Positions 1 through 9,778 of a stretch of DNA of 64,000 nucleotides are shown here, one piece after another. A program made the translations under genes and the position numbers. The stretch lies in NCBI RefSeq assembly GCF_004799645.1, contig NZ_CP031305.1, positions 248,001-312,000 on the forward strand. Reading direction: 5' to 3'. Every line of letters starts with the position of its first letter. Position 1 is the stretch's first letter. This DNA comes from Natronorubrum bangense. Its GTDB lineage: Archaea > Halobacteriota > Halobacteria > Halobacteriales > Natrialbaceae. The notes below the pieces were generated by a model. It saw only the letters and a program-made list of their open reading frames with translations, was not told the origin of the DNA and searched no databases.

Positions 1-1
1 G

Positions 2-1759
2 GCGATACCGCTCGTACTCGCGGGCGTCTTGCTCGTCGGATTCTTGTGGCCCGCAACGCGGGCGATGCCAATCGCCTGGGTCGTCGCGGTCCTGGTCGGC
101 TTTTTCATCTGGGGGATGCCGGTTGACTGGATCGCCGCGGCGTCGATCGTCGGTGTCATGACGGCCATCCAGATTCTCTGGATCGTCTTCGGCGCATTGT
201 TACTCCTGTACACGCTGATGCAGGCCGGCGCGTTCGATCGCATCAACGAAGGGTTCGCGAAGATCAGCAACGACCGGCGCGTGCAGGTGATCCTGCTCGG
301 CTTCTTCTTGGCGACGTTCATCGAGGGGGCAGCCGGGTTCGGGACGCCCGCCGCCGTCGTCGCCCCGCTGTTGCTCGCACTCGGATTCCCAGCGCTTGCG
401 GCGGTGATCGCGGCGCTGATCGGACACATCATCGCCGTCACCTACGGCGCAGTCGGGACGCCGATCATCATCGGGATCGAGAACCCGCTCGCAACGACGG
501 AATCGACCAATACGGCGATCACCGACGCCGGGTTTACCGTCCAGGCGTACTCGGTCGAAGTCGCGGTCTGGGCAGCGACCTACCACGCCCTCGTCGGATT
601 CGTCATGCCGCTGTTCGCCGTCGGGATGGTCGTCTACTTCTTCGGCGATCAGGACGAGCGTAGCCTCCAGCCGGCGTGGGACGTCGCGCCGCTGGCGCTG
701 TTCTCGGGGATCGCGTTCGTGGTCCCCTACTGGCTGTCGGCACAGATCAGTGCTGAGTTCCCCGCCCTGATGGGTGCGATGGTCGGCGGTGCAATCGTCG
801 TCGGCGCGCTCAAAGCGGGCTACTTCGTCCCCGACGAGGAGTGGGACTTTCCGGACCGGGAGGAGTGGCCGGCCCACTGGGTTGGCACGATCGAACCCGG
901 ACAGGCAAGCGCTCCGGGCGTCGAGCAGGGGGCCGATGACGGTGCGACGACCGCCGATGGCGGGCTCGTCGCCAGTCAGATGTCGCTGTTTCGCGCCTGG
1001 ACACCGTACATTCTGCTGGTCGTCTTGCTCGTCGTCACGCGAGTCGTCGATCCGCTTCCAGCGTTCTTGCAGGGAGAGGCCGTTGAGGTCGCCGGAACCA
1101 CGATCACGGCCCACCAACTGCTGTTCACCACGACGTGGGAAGGGATCTTTGGAACCGGTCTCGACGGTGGCATCGACTGGGTGTACGTCCCCGGCTTCTG
1201 GCTGGTTCTCTGTGCACTGATCGCGATCCCGCTGTACGGAATGTCCGGCACACAGGTGAAAGCCGCCTGGGCTGAAGCGGGTGAGAAGCTCGTCGCACCG
1301 TTCATCGCGCTGGTGTTCGTCATCGCAATGGTGCAGGTGATGCTCCAGTCCGGTGCACACGCCGAGGGCGTCGAAAGCATGATCTTCGTCCTCGCACAGG
1401 CGACTGCAAACGCCGTCGGACCCGCCTATCCGTTCGTCGCCGCGCTCATCGGCGCGCTCGGCGCCGCGATGGCCGGCTCGAACACGGTGTCGAATATCAC
1501 CTTCGGCGGGTTCCAGTTCGAGGCCGCCTCGCAGCTCGAGCTGCCGACCCAGCTCATCGTCGGCGCACAGGCCGTCGGCGGCGCGATCGGGAACCTCGTC
1601 GCGATCCACAACGTGGTTGCCGCGCTCGCGACCGTCGGCCTCGTCGGCCAGGAGGGACGTGTGATGCGGTTGAACCTGATCCCGCTCGTCTACTACGCAG
1701 TCGGGGTCGGAATCGTCGCAATGGTGTTCAGCTACGTCCTCTTCCCGGGTCTCTTCTAG
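2..1759 (+). CDS. lctP: L-lactate permease (LctP family), paralogue 1, 5' end outside window
   Basis: Integral membrane secondary transporter that imports lactate or glycolate with protons. The reading frame is open from the first bases of the window and already matches internal permease sequence there (ALPLLVVGVLLVG-type stretch in the two paralogues downstream), so the true start lies upstream; the TTG at 29 is not a credible start. Many hydrophobic segments are visible, with the family-typical [18 protein letters not shown] stretch and, near the C-terminus, GSNTVSNITFGGFQ and AIGNLVAIHNVVAA. A hydrophilic cytoplasmic loop lies around the [14 protein letters not shown] segment. It is the first of three tandem paralogues that end at a D-lactate dehydrogenase-like gene. 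A T7 run follows the stop codon. Confidence 0.93.
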   Translation, partial: AIPLVLAGVLLVGFLWPATRAMPIAWVVAVLVGFFIWGMPVDWIAAASIVGVMTAIQILWIVFGALLLLYTLMQAGAFDRINEGFAKISNDRRVQVILLGFFLATFIEGAAGFGTPAAVVAPLLLALGFPALAAVIAALIGHIIAVTYGAVGTPIIIGIENPLATTESTNTAITDAGFTVQAYSVEVAVWAATYHALVGFVMPLFAVGMVVYFFGDQDERSLQPAWDVAPLALFSGIAFVVPYWLSAQISAEFPALMGAMVGGAIVVGALKAGYFVPDEEWDFPDREEWPAHWVGTIEPGQASAPGVEQGADDGATTADGGLVASQMSLFRAWTPYILLVVLLVVTRVVDPLPAFLQGEAVEVAGTTITAHQLLFTTTWEGIFGTGLDGGIDWVYVPGFWLVLCALIAIPLYGMSGTQVKAAWAEAGEKLVAPFIALVFVIAMVQVMLQSGAHAEGVESMIFVLAQATANAVGPAYPFVAALIGALGAAMAGSNTVSNITFGGFQFEAASQLELPTQLIVGAQAVGGAIGNLVAIHNVVAALATVGLVGQEGRVMRLNLIPLVYYAVGVGIVAMVFSYVLFPGLF

Positions 1760-1778
1760 GGCCCGGTTTCGAACGGTC

Positions 1779-1785
1779 TTTTTTT
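1779..1785 (+). terminator. Oligo-T terminator after permease 1
   Basis: A run of seven T follows the stop codon of the first permease by about 20 bases and comes after a GC-rich stretch. Archaeal RNA polymerase terminates at such oligo-T tracts. The next gene is on the other strand, so a stop here makes sense. Confidence 0.5.
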
Positions 1786-1946
1786 GACTGAACAGCTGCC
1801 GCAGGAACCCTGAGACTGTTTTTGCTCGAGCGTGAATCCGAGCGAGAGCTGTCGCGTCACGGCACCGAACGCCAACCGGATTCAGCCCCGGACCACGAGT
1901 AGCGAGTCGAGAACGGACGGAAGCCAGCGCCGGTGTAACAGCGTTC

Positions 1947-2564
1947 TCAGCCGAGCGTTGGCGTGAACCGATCGTCCCCGAGGAAGTTCCAGATGTGACC
2001 TCGCTCTTCGGGCGGGTCGACGGCAGGCAACTCCTTGAGCGCGGGTTGAATCGCGTTCCACCACCCTTCCGCCGTCTCGAACTCGGCTGGGTGGTCGGGA
2101 TAGACGTGTTCGAGGAACTCCGACTTGGTCGCGCTCGGGTGATCGACGATGTACTCGTAGGCTGCCCGTAACGCGTCGCGGCGCGCCTCGAGCGACTGCC
2201 CGGTTCCTGGGAGGTCGGCAGTGCGGATCGCCGTCTCGATGGCGGCGGACGACTCGTCACCCTTGGTTCGTTCTCCCGCCGGCGACGCCACCTCGGGCTG
2301 TCCTCGTTCCGGTGGCGTCTCGATCGGAATCCACCACACCCGTCCTCGAGCACCCACCTTGCGCGTCTCGAGGGTCCCGCGATCGACGAGCTCATTCAGT
2401 TTGTTGTGGGCGGTTCGGCGGGAACACTCGAGCGCGTCCATGACGTCGTCAGCAGTCAGCGGCCGACCGTAATCTGACCGATCCTCGAAGACAGTGAGGG
2501 CGGCCTCCGGGGGGATTCGATCGGTGTACTGCCCGTGTTCGTTCCGTTCTCGATCAGCACCCAT
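1947..2564 (-). CDS. Winged-helix DNA-binding protein, probable transcription regulator
   Basis: 205 residues, acidic. Residues about 25-75 form a helix-turn-helix/winged-helix module: an initial PPEAALTVF segment, then YGRPLTADDVMDAL, and a recognition-helix-like CSRRTAHNKLNELVDRGTL followed by a wing (KVGARGRVWWIP). This arrangement is common in haloarchaeal regulators. The C-terminal half (about 120-205) holds a conserved-looking alpha-helical domain with FLEHVYPDHPAEFETAEGWW and is of unknown role. It sits on the minus strand between lactate permeases 1 and 2 and is divergent from permease 2, so control of the lactate genes is a reasonable inference but not shown. No sensor domain was recognised. 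Confidence 0.8.
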   Translation of the reverse strand: MGADRERNEHGQYTDRIPPEAALTVFEDRSDYGRPLTADDVMDALECSRRTAHNKLNELVDRGTLETRKVGARGRVWWIPIETPPERGQPEVASPAGERTKGDESSAAIETAIRTADLPGTGQSLEARRDALRAAYEYIVDHPSATKSEFLEHVYPDHPAEFETAEGWWNAIQPALKELPAVDPPEERGHIWNFLGDDRFTPTLG

Positions 2565-2684
2565 ACGCGCTACCAGTGCAGTCGACTGTAAATGCTTTTG
2601 CCCCGCGAGCCGAGTCGGAACTGGAAATGATACCGAATTCGGTCGGATACCCGCGTGAGGAGTACACGTTTGTGGTCTCAGTTT

Positions 2685-2765
2685 ATATCATCGTGCGATA
2701 TCCGTGGGGGGTTCCGATCCGACAACTATAACTGGTACATGTACACAGATATCATACGACATGAT
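2685..2765 (+). promoter_or_regulatory. Candidate operator/promoter region of permease 2
   Basis: The region between the divergent regulator and permease 2 has three short inverted repeats: ATATC/GATAT (2685-2689 and 2697-2701), a perfect palindrome GTACATGTAC (2735-2744), and ATCAT-ACGAC-ATGAT (2751-2765). TATA-like stretches (TTTATATC near 2682 and CTATAAC near 2727) lie beside them. If the second is used, the message has a leader of roughly 80 bases, unusual for this mostly leaderless genome. Function as operators is inferred. Confidence 0.4.
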
Positions 2766-2834
2766 GCCAGGGGAACGCCAGCGGCGGGGCGCTGTAGGAG
2801 TCGTCTGTGAGACCGGTGTGACGAATTGACGAGT

Positions 2835-4613
2835 ATGGTATCGGAACTAGACGTACTGTTCGCCGCCCTCCCCCTGCTCGTCGTCGGCGTCTTGCTCGTT
2901 GGATTGCTGTGGCCGGCGACACGGGCGATGCCGATCGCGTGGCTCGCTGCCATCGGCGTCGCCGCCGTTGTCTGGAACATGCCGCCAGCGTGGCTCGCCG
3001 CGGCGACGATCGAAGGAATCCTCACCGCGATACAGATCCTGTGGATCGTCTTCGGTGCCCTCGTGCTCTTGTATACGATGATGCTAGCGGGGGCGTTCGA
3101 TGCCCTCAACCGGAGCTTCGCGACGGTCAGCGAGGACCGCCGCATCCAAGTGGTTCTGGTCGCCTTTTTCCTCGCGACGTTCCTCGAGGGCGTCGCCGGC
3201 TTCGGGACGCCGGCAGCCGTCGTCGCGCCGCTGTTGCTGGGACTCGGCTTCCCGGCGCTTGCGGCAGTGATCGCAGCGCTGATCGGCCACATCATCGCCG
3301 TCACCTACGGCGCGGTTGGGACGCCGATCATCGTCGGCATCCGGGAACCGATGGATAGCGTCTTCCGGATCAGAACGGCGCTCGAAAGCGAGGGGGTGAC
3401 TGCAGCGGAGTTCTCGGTCAACGTCGCAGCGTGGGCGGCGACCTACCATCTGCTCGTTGGCGTCTTGATGCCGTTCATCGCGGTCGCGATGGTCGTCTAC
3501 TTCTTTGGCGAGCGCCGATCGATCAGGCCCGCACTCGAGGTCGCGCCGCTGTGTCTGTTCGCAGGCGTCGCGTTCGGCGTTCCGTACTGGTTTTCGGCCT
3601 GGTATGTCACGCCGGAGTTTCCGAGTCTGATCGGATCGATGGTCGGCGCGACGGTCGTCGTCGGCGCGCTGCGGGCGGGCTACTTCGTTCCCGACGAGGA
3701 CTGGGAGTTTCCCGACCAGTCCGAGTGGCCCGACCACTGGCTGGGCGACATCCAGCCCGGCGACCGCGGATCGGTGTTGTCCAGCGAGCCACGGATGTCT
3801 CTCGTTCGTGCGTGGACGCCGTACCTCCTGTTGCTCGTATTGCTCGTCGTCACTCGGCTGGTGGAACCGCTCCCGGCACTGTTACAGGGAGAGACGGTGA
3901 CGATCCTCGGCCGAGAGCTGTCGTTGACGCTCTGGTCGATCAGTACCGGCGTGGGCCAGTTTACGATCGGCCTCGTCTCCCTCGAGTGGGCCGAGATATT
4001 CGGGACGAGAATCGGCAACGAGATCGACTTCGGCTACGTCCCCGGCATGTGGCTGCTGGGCAGCGCGCTCGCGGCGATGGTGCTGTTCGATATGGAACGA
4101 TCGGACGCGACAACCGCCTGCCTCGAGGCCGCCAGAAAGCTCGTGACGCCGCTGATCGCGCTGGTGTTCGTCCTTGCAATGGCACAGGTCATGCTCCAGT
4201 CGGCCGCCCATCCGGATGCACCGCCCCAGAGCATGATCGTCGTCCTCGCGATGGCAACCGCGACCGTCTTCGGGCCCGCCTACCCGTTCGTCGCCGCGCT
4301 CATCGGCGCGCTCGGGGCCACACTCGTGGGATCGAACACCGTCAGCAACATCACGTTCGGCCCGCTGCAGTTCATCGCTGCGGAGAACCTCGGCATCTCG
4401 CGGGAACTCACCGTCGGCTCACAAGCTGTCGGCGGCGCGATCGGGAACCTCGTTGCGATCCACAACGTCGTCGCTGCGCTCGCAACGGTCGGCCTCGTCG
4501 GCCAAGAGGGGCGCGTGATCCGGGTGAATCTCGTTCCGCTCGTATACTACACCGTCTTTGTGGGCGTCTGGACCGTACTCTTCGTCTACGTCCTCTTCCC
4601 AGATGTCTTCTGA
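2835..4613 (+). CDS. lctP: L-lactate permease (LctP family), paralogue 2
   Basis: 592-residue polytopic membrane protein of the lactate/glycolate:H+ symporter family. The ATG at 2835 (MVSELDVLF) is preferred over an in-frame TTG nine bases earlier. It shares with its neighbours the [18 protein letters not shown] segment, the cytoplasmic SEWPDHWLGDIQPG loop, the GSNTVSNITFGPLQF helix and the C-terminal [22 protein letters not shown] stretch in part. The whole family length is present (about 550-600 residues). The loop between the two halves is shorter in acidic residues than in paralogue 1, and an extra segment occurs near LSLTLWSISTGVGQFT. No other gene lies between it and permease 3, but a separate promoter is likely. 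Confidence 0.95.
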   Translation: MVSELDVLFAALPLLVVGVLLVGLLWPATRAMPIAWLAAIGVAAVVWNMPPAWLAAATIEGILTAIQILWIVFGALVLLYTMMLAGAFDALNRSFATVSEDRRIQVVLVAFFLATFLEGVAGFGTPAAVVAPLLLGLGFPALAAVIAALIGHIIAVTYGAVGTPIIVGIREPMDSVFRIRTALESEGVTAAEFSVNVAAWAATYHLLVGVLMPFIAVAMVVYFFGERRSIRPALEVAPLCLFAGVAFGVPYWFSAWYVTPEFPSLIGSMVGATVVVGALRAGYFVPDEDWEFPDQSEWPDHWLGDIQPGDRGSVLSSEPRMSLVRAWTPYLLLLVLLVVTRLVEPLPALLQGETVTILGRELSLTLWSISTGVGQFTIGLVSLEWAEIFGTRIGNEIDFGYVPGMWLLGSALAAMVLFDMERSDATTACLEAARKLVTPLIALVFVLAMAQVMLQSAAHPDAPPQSMIVVLAMATATVFGPAYPFVAALIGALGATLVGSNTVSNITFGPLQFIAAENLGISRELTVGSQAVGGAIGNLVAIHNVVAALATVGLVGQEGRVIRVNLVPLVYYTVFVGVWTVLFVYVLFPDVF

Positions 4614-4853
4614 CCTGTGGCTTCGACGTTTCCGCGCTTGTCTCCGAACGAACACTAAATCGACCATCCCTGGATGTATGGCCAGCAATCATCCCATATA
4701 TTCATTATATATGCAACAATCATGGGAGTGCTCGACAATTCCGATAAATATACATGGTGATCCCCTCGAGACTCGACCGATGCGGCCATCTCACATTCGA
4801 TGGGACGACGAGAGAACAATTCAGTGGATTGAATCTTCTGGAACGGGTCCGCT
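4614..4853 (+). promoter_or_regulatory. Promoter/leader region of permease 3
   Basis: About 240 bases without a gene. It has an AT-rich patch (around 4700-4760) with TATA-like sequences, the best being GATAAATATAC near 4742. An inverted pair TCCCAT ... ATGGGA flanks the CATTATATATGCAAC patch. As for permease 2, the TATA-like element lies about 100 bases before the start codon, so a leader of some 80 bases is possible. Regulation is inferred only. Confidence 0.4.
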
Positions 4854-6611
4854 ATGACCGGTCTGATCGAAGTCGGAGCGGCACTGGCACCGCTCGTTAT
4901 CGTCGCTGTGTTGCTGGTCGGCCTGTTGTGGCCCGCCGCACGGTCGATGCCAGTCGCGTGGCTCGTCGCTGCGATCGTCGGGTTCGTGATCTGGGATATG
5001 CCGTTCGAGTGGATCGTTGCGGCGAGTATCCGTGGCGGCATGGCGGCGATCGAGATCCTCTGGATCGTCTTCGGCGCGCTCGTATTGTTGTATACACTGA
5101 TGCGATCGGGAGCGGTCGACCGAATCAACGACGGGTTCGCCTCGATCAGTGAGGATCGCCGCGTGCAGGTCGTCCTGCTCGCCTTCTTCCTCGCGACGTT
5201 CATCGAGGGAGTCGCTGGCTTCGGGACGCCGGCGGCAGTCGTCGCGCCGCTGTTGCTCGCGCTGGGGTTCCCGGCGCTGGCTGCGGTCGTCGCGGCGCTG
5301 GTCGGACACGCAGTTGCGACAGTGTTCGGCGCGGTCGGCACGCCGGTCATCGTCGGCTTCGAGGCACCACTCGGGAGCGTCGAGGATGTAATCGCCACCG
5401 GCGGGATGTCGGTCGGCGAATTTGCCGCGTCGGCCGGCGGCTGGGCGGCGCTGTTCAACGGCATTCTCGGCGTCTTGATGCCGATGTTCGCCGTCGGAAT
5501 GGTCGTCTACTTCTTTGGCGACACCGAGGAGCGATCGCTCGCCCCGCTGTGGGACGTCGCGCCGCTGTGTCTGTTCGCCGGCGTCGCCTTCGCCGTCCCC
5601 TACTGGGCGTCGGCGTGGTTCATCGGCCCGGAACTCCCCTCGCTCATCGGCGCGATGGTCGGCGGCGCAATCGTCGTCGGCGCGCTCAAAGCGGGCTACT
5701 TCGAACCGGACTCCACCTGGGAGTTCCCTCCACAAGACGAGTGGCCCGACCACTGGGTCGGGACCATCGAGCCGGGAAGCGACGAGACGGACACGGCGAC
5801 GGCCGATACGCAGTCGATGTCGCTGCTGCGTGCGTGGTCGCCGTACCTGATTCTCGTCGTGTTGCTGATCGGGACCCGCGTGGTCGAACCCGCCGCGGAC
5901 TTCCTGCAGGGAGAGGTGGCCGAACTCTTCGGAACGACCGTCCAGACCAACCTCGTCTTCCTCGAGTGGAATTCGATTTTCGGAACCGAAATCAGCGGGG
6001 CGATCGACTGGGCCTACGTTCCCGGCACCTGGCTCATCATCAGCGCGCTGATCGCCATCCCGCTGTTCGGGATGGATCTCGAGGAGGCCGCTGGTGCGTG
6101 GCGCGAGGCCGGGAGCAAAATCGTCTCGCCGCTGGTCGCGCTCGTGTTCGTCATCGCGATGGTCGAAATCATGCTCGAGACCGACGCCCACTTCGAGGAC
6201 GGAGCCGCCGCCGGCGTCCCCGACGGGAGCATGATCGTCGTCCTGGCGGATGCAACCGCAGCAGTGATCGGGCCCGCCTATCCGATGTTCGCACCGGCCG
6301 TTGGCGCGCTCGGTGCGTTCATCGCTGGCTCGATCACGGTCAGTAACATCACCTTCAGTGCGTTCCAGTTCGAAGTCGCCCAGAGCCTCGGACTGCCAAC
6401 CCAGCTGATGCTCGGCGCACAGTCTATCGGCGCGGCGATCGGGAACGTGATCGCGATTCACAACGTCATCGCCGCCCTCGCGACGGTCGGACTGGTCGGC
6501 AAGACCGGCCGAATCGTTCGACTCAACCTTATCCCCGTCGCATACTATCTGTTCGTGGGCGGTCTCCTGACGACGATTGCCGCCTACGTCGTCTTCCCGA
6601 CGGTGTTCTAA
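4854..6611 (+). CDS. lctP: L-lactate permease (LctP family), paralogue 3
   Basis: 585-residue membrane transporter, full length for the family, starting at ATG ([14 protein letters not shown]). The diagnostic [18 protein letters not shown] helix is present, as are the [13 protein letters not shown] loop and the C-terminal [14 protein letters not shown] segment. It departs from its paralogues at family-conserved spots: [13 protein letters not shown] replaces GSNTVSNITFG, and [16 protein letters not shown] replaces GHIIAVTYGAVGTPII. It also carries its own insert, [15 protein letters not shown]. These changes suggest a different substrate preference. The dehydrogenase gene follows after 86 bases on the same strand. 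Confidence 0.94.
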
Positions 6612-6697
6612 CCGTCGCTGGCAGTATAAGCATCGACTCCCAATACCCATCTCACGAAGCGTTCGACTGACGCTAACGGACGCCTGAGACAACACCA

Positions 6698-9600
6698 ATG
6701 ACGATAACACCACCAAACCGACTCGACCCAGCGGACGATCCCGAAGCGAACTACAACTACCAGAGCGACGACATCGAACGGCCCGACCTGCTCGCAGACC
6801 TCGAGGCCCGCGTCGATGGCGACGTTCGCTTCGATAGCTACTCGAGACAGCTGTATGCGACCGACGCGAGCATTTACGAGGTGACACCGATCGGCGTTGT
6901 CTTCCCGACGTCGACCGACGATGTTGCGAGTGTCGTCTCCTACTGTGCCGACAACGAAATTCCGGTCCTCCCCCGCGGTGGCGGGACAAGTCTCGCCGGC
7001 CAGACGGTCAACGAAGCCGTCGTCCTCGATTTCACGACGTACATGGACGACGTCGTCGACATCGATCCCGACGCCCGGCGCGCAACTGCACAGACGGGGA
7101 TCTATCTCGGTTCGTTCAACGAGGCGCTCGCGCCCCACGAACTGAAGTTCGCCCCTGACCCGGCGTGGGGCGACAAGAGCGCACTCGGCGGCGCGATCGG
7201 CAACAACACGACGGGTGCTCACTCCCTGCAGTACGGCAAGACCGACGCCTACGTCGAGGAAGTCGAAGTCGTGCTCGCCGATGGAACCGTCACCACCTTC
7301 GGCGAGGTCGACCTCGAGGACGTCCCGGAACTCGCAGACGGTGACGACCTCGAGTCGGCGATCTACGCCGAAGTCGCCCGAATTCTCGAGGAGCAGGGCG
7401 ATCTCATCGACGACGTCTACCCCGACCTGAAACGGAACGTCTCGGGCTACAATCTCGACTGGCTCGTCGAAGACGCCTACGGCGGCGAACGCGGCATCGG
7501 CGAACCCGACTCCGAAGGTGGGACGATCAACCTCGCGAAACTGCTCTGTGGCAGCGAGGGAACGCTTGCGATCGTCACCGAGGCGACCGTCTCGCTCGAG
7601 ACGATCCCCGAGGAAAAGAGCATGGCGTTGCTTGCCTACGACAGCGTCCTCGAAGCGATGGACGACGTCGAACCCATCGTCGAACACGATCCGGCCGCCG
7701 TCGAAGTGCTCGACGACGTGATGATCGACCTCGCACGAGACACTCCCGAATTCGCGCCCGTCACCGAGATGCTTCCGGACGGGACGGCCGCGGTCTTGAT
7801 CGTCGAGTTCTACGCTGACGACGTCGACGACGGCAAACGGAAGGTCGCGAACCTGCTCGCGGATCGCTGTCCGAGCGTCGAGTCGGAGGGCGAGGCCGAC
7901 GACGAGGACGAGCGAACGATCACCGGTGCGGACACGCTGGCGTTCGACGCCATTGAGGCCTACGACGCCGACAGTCGGGCGAAGATCTGGAAGCTGCGCA
8001 AATCCGGCCTCCCGATCTTGCTCTCGCGGACGACCGACGAGAAACACGTCGCCTTCATCGAAGACACCGGCATCCCGCCGGCAAACCTTCGGGCGTTCGT
8101 CGCCGACTTCCAGGAGGTCCTCGAGGACCACGACACCTACGCCAGCTTCTACGCCCACGCCGGTCCGGGCGTCCTCCACATCCGCCCGCTGGTGAACACG
8201 AAGACCGACGCGGGTCTCGAGGACATGGAGTCGATCACCGACGCCGTGACCGACCTCGTCGTCAAGTACGACGGCTCCGTCTCGGGCGAACACGGCGACG
8301 GCCGCGCTCGCACCCAGTGGAACCGCAAACTGTACGGGGAGGCGGTCTGGGAGACGTTCCAGGAGCTCAAAACGGCGTTCGACCCCGACTGGCTGCTCAA
8401 TCCGGGGCAGGTCGTCTACCGCGACGACGACCCGACCGATATGACCAAAAACCACCGGTTCGGCCCCGACTACGAGTTCAACGCCGGCTTCGAGCCAGCA
8501 CTCGAGTGGGACAACGACCAGGGCTTTCAGGGGATGACCGAACTCTGTCACGGCTGTGGCGGCTGTCGCGGCGAGCAGTCCACGACCGGCGGCGTGATGT
8601 GTCCGACCTTCCGGGCCGAAGACGAGGAGATCCTCTCGACGCGTGGTCGGGCGAACATGCTCCGACAGGCGATGAGCGGCGAACTCGAGCCAGACGAACA
8701 GTTCGACGACGAGTTCGTCGAGGAGGTGCTCGACCTCTGTATCGGCTGTAAGGGCTGTAAACACGACTGTCCGAGCGGGGTCGATATGGCCAAGCTGAAA
8801 GCCGAACTCACCTACGAACATCACAAGCGAAACGGCGTCTCGCTTCGCGATCAGTTCTTCACGAACTTCGAGACCCTCGCAAAGCTCGGTTCTGCGACGG
8901 CCCCCGTCTCGAACTGGATGGCGAAGCTGCCCGGCAGCGGCGTCCTCACCGAGAAGTTGCTTGGGATCTCCCGCGAGCGCGACCTGCCGACGTTCCAGCG
9001 CAACACGTTTGCAAAACGCGTCGCGGACCACCGACCCGCCGTGCCCGCTCGCGAGGCCGACCGCCGCGTCGTCCTCGTTCCCGACATCTACACCAACCAC
9101 GAGTATCCCGAGGCCGGAGAAGCCGCCCTCGCGGTGCTCGAGGCCGCAGGCGTCCACGTCGAGATTGCTGACCCACGCGATGTCGGTCGGCCAGCGTACT
9201 CGAAGGGGCTGCTCGGTCAGGCCGCTGAGGACGCGACCGACACCGTCCACGAACTCCTGCCGTACGTCGAGGACGGGTACGACGTCGTCCTGATCGAGCC
9301 CTCCGACGCCGTCATGGTCCAGTCGGATTATCTCGACCTGTTCGACCATCCGGAGGTCGAGGCGGTCGCCACGAACACCTACGGCGTCTGTGAGTACATC
9401 GATCAGTTCGATCTCGACGCCGACATCGAGTTCGCGGCCCCCGACGAACACCTCGCCTACCACGGCCACTGCCATCAGAAGGCCCACGCGAAAGACCACC
9501 ACGCCGTCGGCGTTCTTCGACGGGCCGGCTACGCGGTCGATCCGCTCGATTCGACGTGCTGTGGAATGGCCGGCTCCTTTGGCTACGAGGTCGAACACTA

Positions 9601-9778
9601 CTCGATGAGTAAGGCCATCGGTGAGGTCCTCTACGAACAGGTCGACGACAGCACGGCCGAGCGCGTCGTCGCTCCCGGCGCATCCTGTCGGACCCAACTC
9701 GAGGACCGTCCCGGTGCGACCGAGAAGCCGCCGACGCCGATCGAGGTCGTCGCCGCGGCACTCGCCGGGCGACGGTAG
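6698..9778 (+). CDS. FAD-linked and Fe-S D-2-hydroxyacid dehydrogenase (D-lactate dehydrogenase-like)
   Basis: 1026 residues that fuse two modules. The N-terminal half is an FAD_binding_4/VAO-type oxidase (PRGGGTSLAGQ for FAD binding near residues 93-105; GSFGYN-type and SGEHGDGRARTQW motifs later). The C-terminal half is a GlpC/GlcF-like part with two cysteine clusters (CHGCGGC...CP near 616; CIGCKGCKHDCP near 679) and a CCG domain (HCHQKAH near 924, CCGMAGSFGYE near 950) for electron transfer. This is the architecture of YdiJ-like D-2-hydroxyglutarate dehydrogenase and of Dld-type D-lactate dehydrogenase. The three lactate permeases upstream favour lactate (or glycolate) as substrate, with electrons passed to the membrane quinone pool. 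Exact substrate is inference. Confidence 0.88.
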   Translation: MTITPPNRLDPADDPEANYNYQSDDIERPDLLADLEARVDGDVRFDSYSRQLYATDASIYEVTPIGVVFPTSTDDVASVVSYCADNEIPVLPRGGGTSLAGQTVNEAVVLDFTTYMDDVVDIDPDARRATAQTGIYLGSFNEALAPHELKFAPDPAWGDKSALGGAIGNNTTGAHSLQYGKTDAYVEEVEVVLADGTVTTFGEVDLEDVPELADGDDLESAIYAEVARILEEQGDLIDDVYPDLKRNVSGYNLDWLVEDAYGGERGIGEPDSEGGTINLAKLLCGSEGTLAIVTEATVSLETIPEEKSMALLAYDSVLEAMDDVEPIVEHDPAAVEVLDDVMIDLARDTPEFAPVTEMLPDGTAAVLIVEFYADDVDDGKRKVANLLADRCPSVESEGEADDEDERTITGADTLAFDAIEAYDADSRAKIWKLRKSGLPILLSRTTDEKHVAFIEDTGIPPANLRAFVADFQEVLEDHDTYASFYAHAGPGVLHIRPLVNTKTDAGLEDMESITDAVTDLVVKYDGSVSGEHGDGRARTQWNRKLYGEAVWETFQELKTAFDPDWLLNPGQVVYRDDDPTDMTKNHRFGPDYEFNAGFEPALEWDNDQGFQGMTELCHGCGGCRGEQSTTGGVMCPTFRAEDEEILSTRGRANMLRQAMSGELEPDEQFDDEFVEEVLDLCIGCKGCKHDCPSGVDMAKLKAELTYEHHKRNGVSLRDQFFTNFETLAKLGSATAPVSNWMAKLPGSGVLTEKLLGISRERDLPTFQRNTFAKRVADHRPAVPAREADRRVVLVPDIYTNHEYPEAGEAALAVLEAAGVHVEIADPRDVGRPAYSKGLLGQAAEDATDTVHELLPYVEDGYDVVLIEPSDAVMVQSDYLDLFDHPEVEAVATNTYGVCEYIDQFDLDADIEFAAPDEHLAYHGHCHQKAHAKDHHAVGVLRRAGYAVDPLDSTCCGMAGSFGYEVEHYSMSKAIGEVLYEQVDDSTAERVVAPGASCRTQLEDRPGATEKPPTPIEVVAAALAGRR

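Follow-up and report, generated by a model that had tools for sequence, protein, structure and literature searches.

Three LctP-family permease paralogues, one with a clade-fixed motif change, in a predicted D- plus L-lactate island of Natronorubrum bangense

Introduction

Why should a single lactate locus carry three permeases? The question is raised by the haloarchaeon Natronorubrum bangense, in which the window that we analyzed (the whole stretch of 64,000 nucleotides, G000:C1:248001-312000) begins with three LctP-family genes in a row, followed by a gene for a fused dehydrogenase. Lactate islands that combine an LctP permease with Dld-II and LldGH are already known, as set out in the sections of PMC4481167 drawn on here, and the present island is ordinary in kind. 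Its unusual part is the occurrence in one slot of three old paralogues. The original prediction was that these copies, the third of which differs in residues that the other two share, divide D-lactate, L-lactate, and glycolate between them. A search of titles and abstract openings in the literature found no description of this array, from which its absence from print does not follow.

Results

The three permease genes (PF02652) are intact and consecutive on the + strand, as open frames and PF02652 matches confirm. Copy 1 (1..1759, +) is cut by the window, in which its frame spans 2..1759 (585 codons, open at the edge); the full frame (L008 11963..13759) encodes 598 aa from a GTG, and its 5' end lies 28 bp (ATG) or 37 bp (GTG) before window base 1. 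Copy 2 (2826..4613, +) encodes 595 aa from a TTG, or 592 aa from an alternative in-frame ATG at 2835, and copy 3 (4854..6611, +), in which GSIT replaces GS(N/D)T, encodes 585 aa. Also as anticipated, a divergent gene for a winged-helix-type regulator (hth; 1947..2564, −; an open frame of 205 aa with helix-turn-helix similarity) sits between copies 1 and 2, and the permeases are followed by a gene for a predicted fused FAD/Fe-S D-2-hydroxyacid dehydrogenase of the Dld-II/GlcDF type (dld; 6698..9778, +; 1026 aa). The copies match PF02652 over nearly the full profile with 337.6, 353.6, and 319.9 bits (Pfam gathering cut-off, 27 bits), and narrowly miss the NCBIfam cut-off of 341.15 for the lctP subfamily model TIGR00795 (328.9, 337.1, and 304.6 bits). 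Scores against the equivalog models were 120.6, 158.4, and 131.4 bits for LldP (NF007740; cut-off 918) and 112.8, 119.9, and 106.2 bits for GlcA (NF007249; cut-off 1121). Glycolate specificity by family model was rejected because no equivalog cut-off was reached. Pairwise identity is 62% between copies 1 and 2, 63% between copies 1 and 3, and 59% between copies 2 and 3.

The genome holds seven PF02652 matches, which correspond to four distinct proteins, the array being present twice. The fourth LctP protein belongs to another clade and is encoded on C2, divergently from a second fused FAD/Fe-S dehydrogenase (L010 6115-11150; C2:504115-509150) that is 50% identical to dld. Nearby are genes that we take, from their translations, to be CitE-like and IclR-type. 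The window itself lies inside a near-exact inverted duplicate of ~369 kb shared by C1 (3.08 Mb) and C2 (828 kb), which on C1 spans 204-369394 and in which the whole array is 100% identical on C1 and C2. No substitutions were found in the parts compared (for C1:1-216000, four stretches totaling 80 kb, with exactness assumed between them), and indels occur only near the linearised C2 ends. This may be a real duplication or an assembly product, and the 12.7% contamination estimate for the genome may reflect it. One edge coincides with a 1.75-kb element (L021 15643-17401; C1:367643-369401) encoding TnpA (139 aa) and a TnpB-like protein (383 aa), with a further copy at C2:372518-374273. Going by its translations, this element is presumably of the IS200/IS605 type.

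What flanks the array on its two sides? The dld product combines FAD_binding_4 (PF01565), FAD-oxidase_C (PF02913), Fer4, and CCG domains in one protein, with a GEHGDG motif visible in the alignment. It thus has the architecture by which the part of PMC4481167 used here recognizes Dld-II (PF01565, PF02913, 4Fe-4S, and CCG, with a GEHGD motif), while its best NCBIfam model is YdiJ, at a score under the cut-off. Judged by its sequence, it probably acts on D-lactate. The original prediction spoke of one D-hydroxyacid dehydrogenase, which is wrong for the locus, since a putative LUD-type L-lactate dehydrogenase pair stands directly upstream. This pair, a 742-aa LUD/Fer4/CCG protein and a 174-aa LUD partner, is encoded divergently from copy 1, just outside the window. 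The larger protein scores 451.2 bits against NF045670 (LldH/LdhH; cut-off 800) and is LldH-like by architecture only, similar to LdhH/LldH of Desulfovibrio. The whole locus is therefore best described as a predicted island for both D- and L-lactate. It resembles the luo operon of Desulfovibrio vulgaris (DVU3025-3033), which likewise has an LctP-type permease, a Dld-II-type enzyme, and LldG/LldH (LUD) in one locus (PMC4481167). However, in the sections of that paper drawn on here the luo operon has one permease, a Dld-II split in two genes, and the fermentative genes por, pta, and ack, and no winged-helix gene between permeases is described there.

The same array was sought in related genomes, and the arrangement recurs. 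PF02652 was found in 59 of the 125 genomes of the family; three such genes stand in a row in seven (G000, G035, G081, G082, G108, G123, and G124) and two in a row in seven others (G009, G015, G053, G055, G067, G110, and G113), while in G073 the second copy is broken. The array is thus not a product of chance, because tandem PF02652 genes recur with a conserved gene order. The order LUD pair, copy 1, hth, copy 2, copy 3, dld is kept in G108, G081, and G082, and the same order without copy 3 is found in seven genomes (L076-L082). In the triple arrays of G035, G123, and G124, the first gene instead resembles a fourth type (cp4-like), and the DNA examined showed no dld downstream of these arrays. 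Elsewhere, a gene of the copy 3 type (L092 and L187) or of the copy 1 type (L136) is the sole permease beside both dehydrogenases. In L188 and L189, the slot is filled by an Nramp-like gene, hth, and copy 3. The hosts are Natronolimnohabitans innermongolicus and Natronorubrum aibiense, and the Nramp-family protein (NF037982, ~250 bits; no Pfam match at 0.001) is encoded between the LUD pair and hth-copy 3 (L188 6666-8402; L189 9761-11524). Neighbors of copy 3-type genes in Halorubrum, Natronocalculus, and Natronococcus (nine proteins), among them an amine oxidase, a luciferase-like monooxygenase, a Gfo/Idh/MocA protein, and a CN hydrolase, give no consistent hint of a substrate.

The slot can also be empty. 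In the congener G106, both dehydrogenases are kept, with a LUD protein 98% identical to that of N. bangense, and the segment from L008 11316 to window position 6558 is absent, its two flanks lying ~60 bp apart. The match restarts inside copy 3, with ~50 bp of that gene remaining, which suggests that the slot was once occupied and then lost its genes, and was not empty from the start. As PF02652 has no match anywhere in the G106 genome, retention of the dehydrogenases does not depend on the permeases.

The three copies are old paralogues and not recent duplicates. In a 58-row tree they fall into separate clades (100/100 for copy 2, 99/92 for copy 1, and 92/85 for copy 3), with copy 3 sister to the rest, and a 121-row tree likewise separates them. 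Members of the copy 3 clade also occur in Halorubrum, Halohasta, Halonotius, and two Rhodothermota metagenome bins. The genes in these bins (L099 and L100, Salinibacteraceae and Rhodothermaceae) may have been exchanged between haloarchaea and bacteria, or their contigs may be misbinned. Between this genome and Natronorubrum thiooxidans, NG86 values of dN/dS are 0.020/0.213 for copy 1, 0.013/0.199 for copy 2, 0.094/0.399 for copy 3, and 0.039/0.351 for dld, ratios of 0.07-0.24 that indicate purifying selection on all copies and on dld. Copy 3 is the loosest of the copies, with a ratio about twice that of its neighbors, which could mean relaxed constraint. In the same comparison (L070), the synonymous distance is ~2-fold higher over copy 3-dld (window 4854-9778) than over LUD-copy 1-copy 2, which suggests recombination within the island, with a breakpoint between copies 2 and 3.

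The quoted residue differences of the third copy are correct in our alignment, and they extend to its whole clade. At position 494, in the GS.T motif, Ile is found in 28 of 28 proteins of the copy 3 clade and Asn in 91 of 91 others, in a sample of 119 permeases of 540-900 aa (identical C-terminal cores merged) that was gathered by a single search across the family and a single pattern-based scan with this array as seed, which over-samples copy 3, and that is without fragments, longer frames, or second copies in genomes outside the sample. Three further copy 3-type genes also have GSIT, two of them being the same loci as earlier rows. Clade labels in this sample are best hits; the trees put some rows with copy 1 as best hit in the cp4-like group, and three rows with copy 3 as best hit (GSNTSSN) fall outside the copy 3 clade. 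At the thresholds used, 12 positions are specific to copy 3, five to copy 2, and three to copy 1. Besides 494, the copy 3 set contains 156 and 158, which immediately precede GAVGTP; 483 and 489, which lie ahead of GSIT; and 539, which follows the AIHN motif. The conserved motifs are the same in copies 1 and 2, where the positions specific to either clade are few and for the most part conservative. The lactate/glycolate:H+ symporters LldP and GlcA of Escherichia coli, which are encoded by one gene per operon (lld and glc), can be aligned over their length with conserved EGAAGFG and GS(D)TxSN motifs, but they are only 27-28% identical to copy 3 and have Asp at the GS(N/D)T position (GSDT versus GSNT/GSIT). 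Copy 3 represents a distinct subfamily with the flagged residues fixed across its clade.

Where do these residues lie? In an AlphaFold2 model of copy 3 (m30badaadcaf5; mean pLDDT 85.5), helices break at 122-125 (GFGT), 160-162 (AVG), 492-493 (GS), and 534 (the start of AIHN). Structure comparison gave Z scores of 21.2 to NaS1, 20.1 to NaDC3, 17.3 to ArsB, and 13.2 to VcINDY; matches were mostly DASS, ArsB, TRAP, and AbgT-type chains with Z scores of 10-21, followed by a drop to 5, and the top matches of a copy 2 model were likewise mostly of these types. The predicted fold of copies 2 and 3 is therefore DASS-like, resembling VcINDY, NaS1, NaDC3, and ArsB. Known substrates of DASS and ArsB proteins are di- and tricarboxylates, sulfate, or arsenite. 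In the model, the flagged residues of copy 3 fall where helices are interrupted, as they are at the substrate- and ion-binding sites of DASS transporters, and the breaks at its conserved motifs resemble DASS hairpin tips and L5ab/L10ab. In VcINDY, SNT motifs at hairpin tips touch the substrate carboxylates and form sodium sites, according to the parts of PMC9098524 and PMC7553777 cited here. By topology, GS(N/I)T would be a hairpin tip of this kind, and copy 3 looks to have lost a conserved polar residue at an apparent substrate or ion site. However, the LctP copies have no detectable sequence similarity to DASS or ArsB proteins. Profile comparison could not place GS(N/I)T on the SNT motif, as profiles of LctP and haloarchaeal DASS proteins gave no alignment (hhalign probability 0.2), so that the equation of the two motifs is drawn solely from the predicted model. 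Among solved structures, no chain matched the LctP profile by sequence.

Gene context separates the copies more clearly than substrate evidence does. The 205-aa hth protein shows helix-turn-helix similarity at residues 32-72, below threshold in Pfam, and reaches no Pfam or NCBIfam cut-off. Its gene adjoins 18 of 19 genes of the copy 2 clade; in the 19th case (G041), the two genes lie on different contigs, each close to an end. The hth family is present in 21 of the 125 genomes: 16 with copy 2 (one broken), two next to copy 3 only, two away from any LctP match, and one as a fragment. Copy 2 and hth therefore travel together, and from this coupling copy 2 is probably controlled by the winged-helix protein. 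The intergenic region between the divergent hth and copy 2 (2565..2825) contains a palindrome, CAGTCGACTG, near the hth start, and TATA-like stretches are found in the gaps before each permease, both read by eye; the palindrome may have a regulatory function.

Discussion

We consider it probable that this is a lactate island in which two flanking dehydrogenases are served by three old paralogous importers, of which copy 2 is privately regulated and copy 3 altered. From the observed gene content, conserved order, clades, and clade-fixed residues, we infer its substrates, ion coupling, and regulation. Lactate would enter via LctP-type transporters with a predicted elevator fold and would be converted to pyruvate by the two flanking enzymes, the LUD-type LldH/LldG pair acting on L-lactate and the fused Dld-II-type protein on D-lactate. 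Copies 1 and 2 probably share a range of small 2-hydroxy-monocarboxylates that they import, with copy 2 probably under the control of its private winged-helix regulator. In copy 3, the predicted substrate/cation site is altered, and this permease probably has a different affinity, a different ion coupling, or a preference for another monocarboxylate.

That the three permeases are equivalent in what they carry, with expression as the only difference between them, is the strongest of the alternatives, although an unlikely one. The interchangeability of permeases in single-permease loci fits this reading, as do the coupling of copy 2 to a regulator gene and the gap with TATA-like stretches before each permease, but the 12 clade-fixed positions of copy 3, several of them beside conserved motifs, exceed what is expected of an equivalent copy.

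The original prediction of three separate substrates fared unevenly. Its premise that copy 3 is distinct stood, upheld by the clade-fixed residues and the helix breaks in the model, and the maintenance together of three distinct clades, the altered motif of copy 3, and the presence of both L- and D-type dehydrogenases would suit a division of labor. However, one permease of the copy 1 or copy 3 type suffices elsewhere beside the same enzymes, which makes the three-way split unlikely as stated. Furthermore, copies 1 and 2 have their motif residues in common, the locus showed no gene specific for glycolate, and the D. vulgaris authors, in the part of their paper cited here, consider both isomers to be carried by characterised lactate permeases (PMC4481167). 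We therefore regard separate carriage of D-lactate, L-lactate, and glycolate as improbable; overlapping lactate-type importers, set apart by regulation in the case of copy 2 and by binding or coupling in that of copy 3, are more likely.

Copy 3 might instead be an exchanger or exporter, for example of lactate and pyruvate, that has lost its cation site, by analogy with DASS exchangers versus cotransporters, which we think very doubtful. That the Asn/Asp of GS(N/D)T is lost where the model predicts a break in the helix would be in keeping with this, and LctP-family proteins can carry pyruvate too, S. aureus LctP and LldP importing it according to the part of PMC12632267 used here. DASS exchangers, as characterized in the cited part of PMC7553777, have occupied cation sites, but no positive surrogate residue was shown for copy 3, which does not align with DASS proteins at the sequence level. 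Moreover, some loci have a copy 3-type gene as their sole permease, which must then import if the locus works. Finally, a recent neutral tandem duplication without function, to which the adjacency and shared orientation of the genes might point, is hardly credible and was rejected, being contradicted by the trees with their separate old clades, by ~60% identity, and by purifying selection.

Returning to the island that we favor, with its altered third importer, what might it mean for the family? First, in haloarchaea the dehydrogenases stay fixed while the permease slot between them gains, loses, and regains genes. Second, the clade-fixed change in copy 3, beside unaltered paralogues, provides a natural test of LctP substrate/ion specificity. 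Going by the predicted model, it is conceivable, though a long shot, that copy 3 founds an LctP subfamily in which Ile removes a cation-site ligand and yields a cation-independent exchanger or a differently coupled carrier. If true, such a carrier would work beside two ordinary symporters in one lactate island.
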